Shown piece by piece: positions 40,519 through 46,847 of a stretch of 64,000 bases of DNA. A program made the position numbers and the translations under genes. The notes under the pieces are model-generated. The model saw only the letters and a program-made list of their open reading frames with translations. It made no database searches and was not told where the DNA came from. Source of the DNA: a virus; IMG/VR virus record IMGVR_UViG_3300013137_000010, positions 19,241 to 83,240 of that record; one strand, given 5' to 3'. The first letter of the stretch is position 1; every line of letters begins with the position of its first letter.

Positions 40519-40568
40519 AGAATACATACAGCAACAAAAAAATGCATGGTTAGCAAAAAAAGTATTCT
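40519..40568 (+). repeat. Hairpin motif AGAATAC...ACAGCAA...GTATTCT (copy 1)
   Basis: AGAATAC (40519-40525) pairs with GTATTCT (40562-40568); the loop begins ATACAGCAA. Three more copies of the motif occur at 40589, 46477 and 46815. The fourth base pair changes A-T to T-A between copies, which keeps the pairing. Confidence 0.6.
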
Positions 40569-40588
40569 GTTCTTAAAAAATTATCTAA

Positions 40589-40655
40589 AGATTACATACA
40601 GCAATCTTAAAAAAGGACCAAACTTGTAATTTGAAATTCTGAAAAAATGTAATCT
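40589..40655 (+). repeat. Hairpin motif AGATTAC...ACAGCAA...GTAATCT (copy 2)
   Basis: AGATTAC (40589-40595) pairs with GTAATCT (40649-40655), with the same ATACAGCAA loop start as copy 1. A shorter alternative, AAGATT/AATCTT, is also possible. Confidence 0.6.
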
Positions 40656-40665
40656 GTGATAAAAT

Positions 40666-40738
40666 GCGAATGTATATCAGCGGTAGATAGTCTGGTTGCC
40701 AACCAGAAGGTTCGTGGGTTCGAATCCCATCATTCGCT
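40666..40738 (+). tRNA. tRNA-Gly(GCC)
   Basis: Acceptor GCGAATG/CATTCGC, D-arm TATC-AGCGGTA-GATA, anticodon arm TCTGG-TTGCCAA-CCAGA, T-arm GTGGG-TTCGAAT-CCCAT. All arms are perfect. Confidence 0.92.
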
Positions 40739-40747
40739 CAGTAAATT

Positions 40748-40818
40748 GCGAAATGTAGCTTAACGGTAAAGTATCTGGCTTCCAACCAGAGGAAGGGGTT
40801 CGATTCCCACATTTCGCT
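40748..40818 (+). tRNA. tRNA-Gly(UCC)
   Basis: Acceptor GCGAAAT/ATTTCGC, anticodon arm TCTGG-CTTCCAA-CCAGA, T-loop TTCGATT. The D-stem is weak. Confidence 0.88.
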
Positions 40819-40822
40819 CCAT

Positions 40823-40900
40823 GCGAGCATAACTCAGTAGGTTCAGAGTACTTGTCTTACAAACAAGAAGTCGATGGTTCGACTCCATCTGTTCGCACCA
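40823..40900 (+). tRNA. tRNA-Val(UAC), CCA encoded
   Basis: Acceptor GCGAGCA/TGTTCGC, D-arm ACTC/GAGT, anticodon arm CTTGT-CTTACAA-ACAAG, T-arm GATGG-TTCGACT-CCATC, followed by ACCA in the DNA. Confidence 0.9.
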
Positions 40901-40902
40901 AT

Positions 40903-44231: not shown

Positions 44232-45502
44232 TTGATTTTTTTTGTTATACTGATAGGTCTTTTTAAGGAATAAGGACTTATTCCAGATTTTAAAGCTAAT
44301 AGAATACCAGCGGCTTCCAGATAGCTTTTAGCTTTGAAGAATTGATTGTCATTCCAAGGTAAAAGGTCTAAATCATTCTTCATTAAGTTTGTTTCATCTT
44401 CTATTGCAACAACTGGAATGTTTTGTTCTAAAGCTGCAATCAAAGGTAGACCGATACATCTATCAGGCGTTACTAATGCGCTTATGTTTCTATTTGTGAT
44501 TATTCCAGATTCGTATGTCGGTGTAACTATTTTAGGCGTTAAATACATACCTTTAATAGTACAAAATAATTCGGTGGTAGAAAGTATTTCTGGTGTTTTT
44601 CTAGGATCCACTATTTCAAAAGGATATTCTAGAAACATTTTTTCGAGAACTGGCGCATGCGCGCAAGGTATATCATAAAGATTTGATATTGTATGAGTTA
44701 AAAGGCTTTCTGCGGATCCCCACGGATTAGCCATATTTTTTTCGCTATAATAATCATCTAATAGCTCTTGTGTATCACCGTTTAATAAAGTATATAGTAT
44801 AAATGAATCGTAATCATCTTTATATTTTTCTATAATATTTGTTAATTTTTCAAGATTTTCTATTTTACCAGTAGCCATTCCAAGATCATTATAAAATATT
44901 TCATAATATGGTGTATTATATAATTCAATAACATCTATTTCACAACCTAATGTTACTCTGGCAGCTGATGCCATATTGAGAGGTCTAAAATTATGATAAT
45001 AATTACTTTTATTTGTATCGTATATTAGTAATATTTTGTTTTTTCTTCTTGGAGCTAAGCCAATCGTACCCATCATGAATCTACTTAAAGTGCTACCTTC
45101 AACATATAGTGTATTACTAGTCATTTCGTTAATATCTGCCGCGTTTACAACATTTGGATGTGTAATAAGTGTATCTGCGATACTTCCTAAAAGTCTTGCT
45201 GATGGATTTCCATCACCAGAATTACCACCAACATCAGCTCTGATACCTGTTGGTATTATTTGTACTATGTTAAATTTTGTTTGATCTGTGAATAATGTTG
45301 GATTAAAATCAAAAATATTTTTATATTGATAATTATTAATATTTTCAATTTCAGCATACTCACATTCTATGATATCATCTTTATACTCAACTATGGCAAA
45401 TCTTGATATATTTTTATTTTTGAAAATTTCCTTTAATCTAATGAAATTTCCTTTCTTATCAAATTTAAATGATATTTTTTTATTTTTCTGAAAAACTTCC
45501 AT
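44228..45502 (-). CDS. DUF3326-family protein
   Basis: 424 residues. The family signature is clear: IIPTGIRADVGGNSGDGNPS with ARLLGSIADTLITHPNVVNA (about 84-120), NTLYVEGSTLSRFMMGTIGL, and the C-terminal LPLIAALEQNIPVVAIED. Function of the family is unknown; it has a nucleotide-binding-like look. It is coupled to the phosphatidylserine decarboxylase gene, which suggests a shared lipid-related task. Its 5' end overlaps the GIY-YIG gene by 23 bp, which probably means that the latter was inserted. Confidence 0.8.
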   Translation of the reverse strand: MEVFQKNKKISFKFDKKGNFIRLKEIFKNKNISRFAIVEYKDDIIECEYAEIENINNYQYKNIFDFNPTLFTDQTKFNIVQIIPTGIRADVGGNSGDGNPSARLLGSIADTLITHPNVVNAADINEMTSNTLYVEGSTLSRFMMGTIGLAPRRKNKILLIYDTNKSNYYHNFRPLNMASAARVTLGCEIDVIELYNTPYYEIFYNDLGMATGKIENLEKLTNIIEKYKDDYDSFILYTLLNGDTQELLDDYYSEKNMANPWGSAESLLTHTISNLYDIPCAHAPVLEKMFLEYPFEIVDPRKTPEILSTTELFCTIKGMYLTPKIVTPTYESGIITNRNISALVTPDRCIGLPLIAALEQNIPVVAIEDETNLMKNDLDLLPWNDNQFFKAKSYLEAAGILLALKSGISPYSLKRPISITKKIK

Positions 45503-46190
45503 CGTTATTTCTTATTAATTTTTTTATCAATTTGTAGCCGTTACACTCACCTTTATCTAATATTAATCTACTATAGTCAAAAAAATTCATCAGATTTTTG
45601 AAAGTCTTTATTTCAATAGTTTCACCTGTCGGAGATTTTAATACATAAATGACATGACAAAAACCTTTTTGTTTTCCACCACTATAATTTTGTCTCATTT
45701 TTTCTATACTTTCTTCCGAATGTTTTTTACCGAACATTCCATTTTTATTACCAGACAATAAACCTTTATGCTTATCGCTAATTTTTTTTCTAGTTTCTTC
45801 GGGGAGATGTTTTCCAAAAAGATAATGATTTTCACCTGATATTTTTTGAGATATTTTCTTTAGTATTTCTGATTTGTTTGGATTGTATGTATAAGTATCG
45901 CCTCCTTCACCACCAATAGAAATATTATAACCGTTTGGTACAAATGAATTTAGTTTTTTTATCCAATATTTTTCTCTTTCACACATTTCTTCAATAGTTT
46001 TACAAGTTTCTATGATTGATATTTCAAAATTGTTGACACCATATTTTTTAAAAGCTGAATAGAGTGGTCTATTTTCGTTATATTTTGATCTTTTTATATG
46101 TTTAATAAGTCTGGTGTTGATATCATCTTCTTTGGTCATACCAATATAAATTTTATGATTAATTTTATTTTCTATTTGATAAATAAACAT
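45480..46190 (-). CDS. GIY-YIG homing endonuclease with NUMOD3 repeats
   Basis: 236 residues. MFIYQIENKINHKIYIGMT is the GIY-YIG core (Tyr4, Tyr15), followed by NTRLIKHIKRS, the catalytic Arg region, and the Glu in MCEREKYWIKKL. The second half has NUMOD3 repeats (GKHLPEETRKKISDKHKG, GKKHSEESIEKMRQ) and a C-terminal helix-turn-helix-like end. Related to the T4 Seg/I-Tev group. Confidence 0.88.
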   Translation of the reverse strand: MFIYQIENKINHKIYIGMTKEDDINTRLIKHIKRSKYNENRPLYSAFKKYGVNNFEISIIETCKTIEEMCEREKYWIKKLNSFVPNGYNISIGGEGGDTYTYNPNKSEILKKISQKISGENHYLFGKHLPEETRKKISDKHKGLLSGNKNGMFGKKHSEESIEKMRQNYSGGKQKGFCHVIYVLKSPTGETIEIKTFKNLMNFFDYSRLILDKGECNGYKLIKKLIRNNDGSFSEK

Positions 46191-46336
46191 TATTTATTTT
46201 TTCTTATATATTATATTTTGATATGAATTTTTCTTAATTTTTACTTAAAAGTAGAAAAATTAGACATTTTTTAAAAAATATATAATTTTTGAAAAATATT
46301 TCAACTTTTATAAAAAGTCGAACTATCAATATATTC

Positions 46337-46345
46337 GTTCTTTGA
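46337..46345 (+). promoter_or_regulatory. boxA-like element before the large RNA
   Basis: GTTCTTTGA about 20 bases before the first stem of the structured RNA, matching elements before tRNA-Pro, tRNA-Ala and tmRNA. Confidence 0.5.
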
Positions 46346-46636
46346 AAATATTAAAAAATTATTGATGAATACGCTGGCTTAAGTGCCGCACTGCAAAACC
46401 AAAAATATGCAAATTAAATATGGCTAATCGGAACCGTATTCAGTTAATTTTTTTAATAAATTGATATTACTCATAAAGAATACATTCTGCAAATGATTAA
46501 AAATCATACGACAAATAGGCAGAAGCTGTGATGTGTTAGTGTTTTTATACTTTTCTAAGTTCTCACTCGTCGAACACATCAACACCGGAAGGTGAGAAGC
46601 TTCAGACAAATAAAAAAATTTAGTAAAGAAAGTTTT

Positions 46637-46774
46637 ATGAGGTTTTTGAGAAAAACTTCTTGTATTCTGTTGGGAGAAATTTTGTCACCACTCATGTTGA
46701 GTGGAGGACTTGGTTGTTCACATTACTGTAAATGTGAAAATTTAAAATCCCAACTAATGCATTATATGATGTAA
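46637..46774 (+). CDS. Possible 45-residue leader peptide overlapping the terminator
   Basis: MRFLRKTSCILLGEILSPLM, then LSGGLGCSHYCKCENLK. It can be extended to a GTG at 46592. The stop lies in the loop of the terminator, so a translating ribosome would cover the 5' arm. It may instead be a chance frame in a structured RNA. Confidence 0.3.
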   Translation: MRFLRKTSCILLGEILSPLMLSGGLGCSHYCKCENLKSQLMHYMM

Positions 46775-46789
46775 TAGTTGGGATTTTTT
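46669..46789 (+). terminator. Terminator with a competing antiterminator arm
   Basis: AATCCCAACTA (46746-46756) pairs with TAGTTGGGATT (46775-46785), followed by T residues: a strong terminator. The same TCCCAAC can pair instead with an earlier GTTGGGA (46669-46675), aided by AAATTTT/AAAATTT. The two structures exclude each other. Confidence 0.7.
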
Positions 46790-46814
46790 ATTTTATTATT
46801 ATTTATTAACCTCT

Positions 46815-46847
46815 AGATTACTAACAGCAAAAAATAAAATGTAATCT
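46815..46847 (+). repeat. Hairpin motif AGATTAC...ACAGCAA...GTAATCT in the 5' UTR
   Basis: CTAGATTAC (46813-46821) pairs with GTAATCTGG (46841-46849); the loop starts TAACAGCAA as in the tRNA-region copies. It lies 31 bases before the Ro60-like start codon. Confidence 0.65.

Follow-up and report, generated by a model that had tools for sequence, protein, structure and literature searches.

We analysed a 64,000-nucleotide (nt) stretch of AT-rich viral DNA (the window), which sits within an 83-kb contig carrying genes for a tail sheath and a ribonucleotide reductase, many tRNAs and a transfer-messenger RNA (tmRNA). Hairpin elements with a shared stem unite two sites of the window about 6 kb apart, the tRNA array (39.6-42.7 kb) and the region 5' of a gene (46878-48284) for a Ro60-like protein of the DUF2828 type. 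An earlier note on this DNA had described four stems of the form AGA[A/T]TAC/GTA[A/T]TCT, among which the variable pair switches from A-T to T-A with pairing retained. Both the stems and the switch were borne out (Table 1).

Table 1. Hairpin elements, flanking tRNA genes and the Ro60-like gene in the window
Feature	Length	Position	Strand	Stem (arms)	Outer helix	Other properties
Element Y1	50 nt	40519..40568	+	AGAATAC/GTATTCT (40519-40525/40562-40568)	UAAGA/UCUUA (40511-40515/40571-40575)	loop start ATA-CAGCAA; G after stem; 41.6 bits
Element Y2	67 nt	40589..40655	+	AGATTAC/GTAATCT (40589-40595/40649-40655)	UUAUC/GAUAA (40581-40585/40658-40662)	loop start ATA-CAGCAA; G after stem; 39.1 bits
Large element Y3	192 nt	46477..46668	+	AGAATAC/GTATTCT (46477-46483/46662-46668)	CUCA/UGAG	loop start ATT-CTGCAA; internal helices; minimum free energy z -2.7
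Short element Y4	33 nt	46815..46847	+	AGATTAC/GTAATCT (46815-46821/46841-46847)		loop start TAA-CAGCAA; 30.4 bits
Divergent fifth copy		46366..46442	+	TGAATACG/CGTATTCA (46366-46373/46435-46442)		loop has ACTGCAA; G after stem
tRNA-Thr (GGT)		40437..40510	+			immediately 5' of Y1
tRNA-Gly (GCC)		40666..40739	+			immediately 3' of Y2
Ro60-like protein gene	468 aa	46878..48284	+			DUF2828 + DUF7788; phrog_850 'RNA-binding protein'

Three of the window copies have a second, outer helix past a UAA/GU internal loop. The outer helix of Y1 begins at the first base past tRNA-Thr, and Y1 and Y2 with their outer helices take up most of the 155 nt separating tRNA-Thr from tRNA-Gly. The large element Y3 has homologues in the related loci L006, L007, L014/L192 and L216, among which its internal helices are conserved with modest covariation. 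Y4 lies in the 5' untranslated region of the Ro60-like gene, 30 nt ahead of the ATG. L006 and L007 carry a regular copy where the window has its divergent fifth stem.

The core AGAWTAC-N3-C[AT]GCAA was found four times in the window and in none of 150 dinucleotide shuffles, and a permissive count of AGAWTAC...GTAWTCT stems (loops of 10-200 nt) gave 5, against a shuffle mean of 0.23 and a maximum of 2. A covariance model of the short elements, built from one window copy and 64 elements of other loci, matched the window only at 40518-40569, 40588-40656 and 46814-46848 (scores in Table 1), with the next match at E = 5.5; the long copy Y3 falls outside this model. A search of the whole 83-kb contig found no further copies. 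At gathering level, Rfam reported only tRNAs and the tmRNA in the window, and weak matches of the hairpins, such as to Dicty_Class_I_RNA, were rejected as reflecting a similar short stem only.

The element signature across DUF2828 loci

In the closest relatives (L006, L007 and L014, protein 76-81% identical), a tandem pair stands between tRNA-Thr(GGT) and tRNA-Gly and further copies lie 5' of the gene, as in the window. Distant relatives (about 40-44% protein identity) have wholly different stem sequences in an identical layout, including the exact complement followed by G. The general layout is an A-N6 stem, 3 nt, CAGCAA, a loop, the complementary stem and G. Scanning 175 DUF2828 loci, we identified 227 strict elements on the strand of the gene and one antisense, distributed over 108 loci and comprising 79 different stems. 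The same scan with 59 permuted cores gave a mean of 2.5 elements, and changing the spacer from 3 nt to another length left between 3 and 9 elements. Elements numbered 1.25 per kb in the 300 nt that precede the gene, 0.64 per kb in a 320-nt bin that covers the gene end and the DNA just past it, and 0.004 per kb inside the gene; beyond about 3 kb the density was near zero. At least one strict match was found in 10 of 12 named phages (including Listeria, Campylobacter, Enterococcus, Staphylococcus, Klebsiella, Cronobacter and Felix O1-type phages) and in 52 of 80 bacterial loci, where up to seven copies stand in tandem; a few of these matches are single long ones and may be chance. Many other viral contigs also carry the element. 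Exact 16-mer scans of viral contigs returned about 200 places, most of which lack the partner stem and were hence put down to chance.

Pair counts on the model alignment are circular, as pairing was the selection rule for that set. In a fair test, CAGCAA sites near the gene were picked regardless of pairing, and 228 of 366 had their own complement plus G downstream, compared with 16 (maximum 24) after the partners were swapped. Counted over distinct stems, 78 of 171 had their own partner, compared with 1.75 when swapped. That the hairpins are chance products or a repeat that has spread in AT-rich phage DNA might be suspected from the base composition of the window and the commonness of short inverted repeats, yet we regard this as wholly improbable: the shuffles and permuted cores argue against chance, the 79 different stems with pairing retained rule out simple copying, and the pairing test refutes the proposal. 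The earlier note had named chance-level frequency, or lack of conservation in relatives, as what would speak against an element shared between the tRNA region and the Ro60-like locus. Neither was found, given the shuffles, permuted cores and partner-swap test on the one hand and the retention of elements at the same two places in close relatives on the other. Elements were also located in both of these settings in unrelated phages, and together these results support the shared element.

The lengths of the elements are bimodal, with one class of about 50-66 nt and one of 80-125 nt. The 50-66 nt class is common and has almost no internal structure, and the T-loop consensus was present in 41 of the 96 long elements and in 1 of the 99 short ones. 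Long elements of L101 and L097 overlap sub-threshold matches to the tRNA-like domains of YrlA (RF02553), in permuted order, while in Clostridia-type loci some long elements contain a tRNA body in canonical order. A further class of 32-34 nt occupies the gene leader directly ahead of the Shine-Dalgarno sequence in the window, L007, L014 and L028 (in L028 the base following the stem belongs to GGAGG), and L103 has a very short form close to the gene start.

In whole phage records, model matches far from the gene fall mainly between tRNAs. Copies among tRNAs were found in Cronobacter phage S13 (two), KVP40 (one), DLP6 (one) and the 735-kb LR756501 (four), and in Ochrobactrum phage OC an element cluster adjoins the tRNA array. 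As a separate observation, a bacterial contig of Chloroflexi 54-19 (L107, 122-4728) has more than 20 tRNA genes packed 5' of a DUF2828 gene that is accompanied by three CAGCAA elements; this tRNA-rich stretch is possibly a prophage or a tRNA-array element.

The DUF2828 protein and its putative RNA ligands

A structure model of the DUF2828 protein of the window was made from 62 homologues (mean predicted local distance difference 88, predicted template modelling score 0.86) and used in place of an earlier, poor prediction from seven sequences. The model matched the Ro autoantigen 1yvp over about 395 residues, nearly the whole chain (Z 22.3, root-mean-square deviation 3.5); other fold matches were human Ro60 complexes, Ro60 of the Thermus phage phiLo (Z 15-17) and D. 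radiodurans Rsr (2nvo, Z 12.7). The predicted structure has the HEAT-repeat ring and the von Willebrand factor A domain with a metal site that define the Ro60 family. The residues D272, S274, S276, T343 and D375, a set of the metal ion-dependent adhesion site type (DxSxS...T...D), are invariant across the 62-sequence alignment. The TROVE model (PF05731) gave no sequence match to this protein. In two relatives the gene itself is irregular: in L216 (2368-3992) a gap of about 840 nt divides it into two blocks, which suggests an inserted intron or mobile element, and in L014 (3001-4435) the reading frame shifts mid-gene, by frameshift or assembly error.

We consider it highly likely that the hairpins are Y-RNA-like ligands of the phage's own DUF2828 Ro60 homologue. 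The Ro60-like protein is favoured as the ligand because the elements cluster tightly at its gene and four large phages that lack the gene also lack the element. In these phages (T4, phiKZ, SPO1 and Bacillus phage G) no DUF2828 gene and no match to the covariance model were found, an empty search that alone is weak proof; the same model matches 23 of 26 records that were selected because they carry the gene or the element. Alternatively, a host processing enzyme or some other phage protein could recognise the hairpins, with the Ro60-like gene a mere neighbour; tRNA arrays are heavily processed regions, and binding by the DUF2828 protein is deduced rather than observed. Against this very improbable explanation, the elements track the gene, on the same strand, through phages of very different hosts into bacterial genomes, and are missing together with it from the four large phages.

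As Y-RNA-like ligands, the elements would be defined by a 7-bp terminal stem (starting with A and ending U-G), three free bases, and CAGCAA or CUGCAA opening the loop. The ring of the Ro60-like protein would most likely hold this stem-plus-CAGCAA end, leaving the rest of the loop as the working part, free to vary; the short class would bear no cargo, and the long one would carry tRNA-like domains or folds of another kind. Y1 and Y2 would be transcribed within the tRNA array and freed as small RNAs by the trimming of tRNA-Thr and tRNA-Gly, as suggested by the way the two copies and their outer helices fill most of the gap between these tRNAs. Y3 would be a separate structured RNA 5' of the gene, and Y4, in the leader, probably allows the Ro60-like protein to curb its own production. 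Judging from Deinococcus Rsr, the resulting ribonucleoprotein may act in RNA quality control or in the decay of tRNAs and structured RNAs during infection.

The position of the 32-34 nt class right ahead of the Shine-Dalgarno sequence, together with the L103 form near the gene start, would also fit hairpins that are only cis-acting sites in longer transcripts, bound by the Ro60-like protein or a different factor and controlling translation of their own gene and processing of tRNA transcripts, with no separate stable RNAs. This explanation is unlikely, as numerous copies are found past the gene end or in distant tRNA arrays, up to seven copies stand in tandem in bacteria, long elements hold tRNA-like domains, and the matching region of a Listeria phage yields abundant non-coding transcripts (PMC12282133). 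Several findings weigh against Y-RNA-like ligands. No strict element was present in the DNA examined for 67 of the 175 loci. The window copies have no recognisable tRNA-like domain and stay below the Rfam YrlA threshold, and a search for such a domain in the large RNA of the window found none. Outer helices are limited to clades, and a general outer helix, tested on 218 elements, was weak overall. As judged from sequence, the canonical YrlA Ro-binding stem looks different, which makes homology between the two kinds of RNA no more than a possibility.

It is quite possible, if short of probable, that DUF2828 homologues and CAGCAA-stem RNAs form a widespread phage and bacterial ribonucleoprotein system that parallels TROVE-YrlA and follows a recognition code of its own. 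Phages would then place guide or gate RNAs for Ro60 in their tRNA arrays, from which tRNA maturation would release them, possibly so that phage tRNAs are shielded from host anticodon nucleases or recycled. No Rfam family covers the CAGCAA-stem elements, and our literature search, which excludes the key 2014 paper with the RNA list of Chen et al., found no description of the signature, the short class or the copies in tRNA arrays; all three look new in the literature examined. At least 682 sequenced phage records, some of them from well-studied laboratory phages, encode DUF2828-type proteins, whose usual annotation is hypothetical or 'RNA-binding'. The short RNA signature supplies candidate partner RNAs for many of these proteins and accounts for some unannotated gaps in phage tRNA arrays. 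It also offers a simple system for studying the function of Ro60 and Y RNAs in bacteria and phages.

Other features of the window

A phosphatidylserine decarboxylase-like gene and a DUF3326 gene (43431-45502, minus strand), with no PHROGs match, lie in the DNA that separates the tRNA array from the Ro60-like locus. The phage-encoded tmRNA (61894-62267, minus strand) has the tag GNAHAHIVTSKSIFSVSGTVVEDEVFVA. A tRNA-like sequence at 42152-42434 (ggtcccgtagctcagctgg...gtttgaatcctatcgggatca) is interrupted near the anticodon by about 200 nt and adjoins an HNH endonuclease reading frame (41480-42151); it is possibly an intron-bearing tRNA missed by ARAGORN. Three mutually similar, odd tRNA-like sequences (ggcggagt..taaactctatgtgcataat..) at 39730-39900 and 42594-42670 are also absent from the ARAGORN output, one of them just under the Rfam tRNA threshold.

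Comparison with known systems

Y RNAs beside Ro60 genes are already known from bacteria and mycobacteriophages (cited in PMC12282133), and D. radiodurans Rsr has a role in RNA quality control (summarised in PMC7790460). The DUF2828 protein shares with Ro60/Rsr (TROVE) proteins the predicted whole-chain fold and the conserved metal site, but it is classed as DUF2828/DUF7788 and is not recognised by the TROVE sequence model.

RNA sequencing of Listeria phage CKA15 detected very abundant non-coding transcripts 5' of an Rsr-like gene, which were suggested to be Y RNAs (PMC12282133). Like the elements described here, they lie on the same strand, between the Rsr-like gene and tRNAs; unlike them, they come with no motif or structure in the part of that report available to us. 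The Rsr-like protein was found in purified particles, with the authors' caution on that detection (PMC12282133), and the Ro-like protein of mycobacteriophage LeBron is toxic on overproduction (PMC13148394). The CKA15 and LeBron data fit the mechanism proposed above. In Listeria phage LP-124 (L098, 1468-2019), a ROOL-like RNA 5' of the DUF2828 gene scored 87.4 bits, just under the Rfam threshold. From LP-124/cka17 coordinates, the most abundant unexplained CKA15 transcript (26,236-26,727) appears to be such a ROOL-like RNA and not a CAGCAA element. The window shares with ROOL/GOLLD loci a large structured RNA in a tRNA-rich phage region, but the Rfam search gives no match for its large RNA.

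Among eight canonical TROVE loci of Pseudomonadota, YrlA was detected in six, with two copies, both of one locus, above the Rfam threshold, and no CAGCAA element was found in any of the eight. Like YrlA, the DUF2828-linked elements are adjacent to a Ro60-type gene, often in tandem, and are closed by a stem formed from both predicted RNA ends, as the independent pairing test confirmed. The sequence of that stem is not of the YrlA type: the TROVE-linked terminal stem reads CGGCGA-AUGC...CUUG-UCGCCG, whereas the DUF2828-linked one reads A-N6-N3-CAGCAA...U-G. The window copies and the common, near-unstructured 50-66 nt class also differ from YrlA in their bodies, as do the bacterial copies with a tRNA body in canonical order, while many long relatives share with YrlA the permuted T-arm/D-arm tRNA-like domain. 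The DUF2828 lineage thus appears to have a recognition end of its own and a tRNA-mimic body that is partly shared, which might be caused by divergence or by replacement alike.
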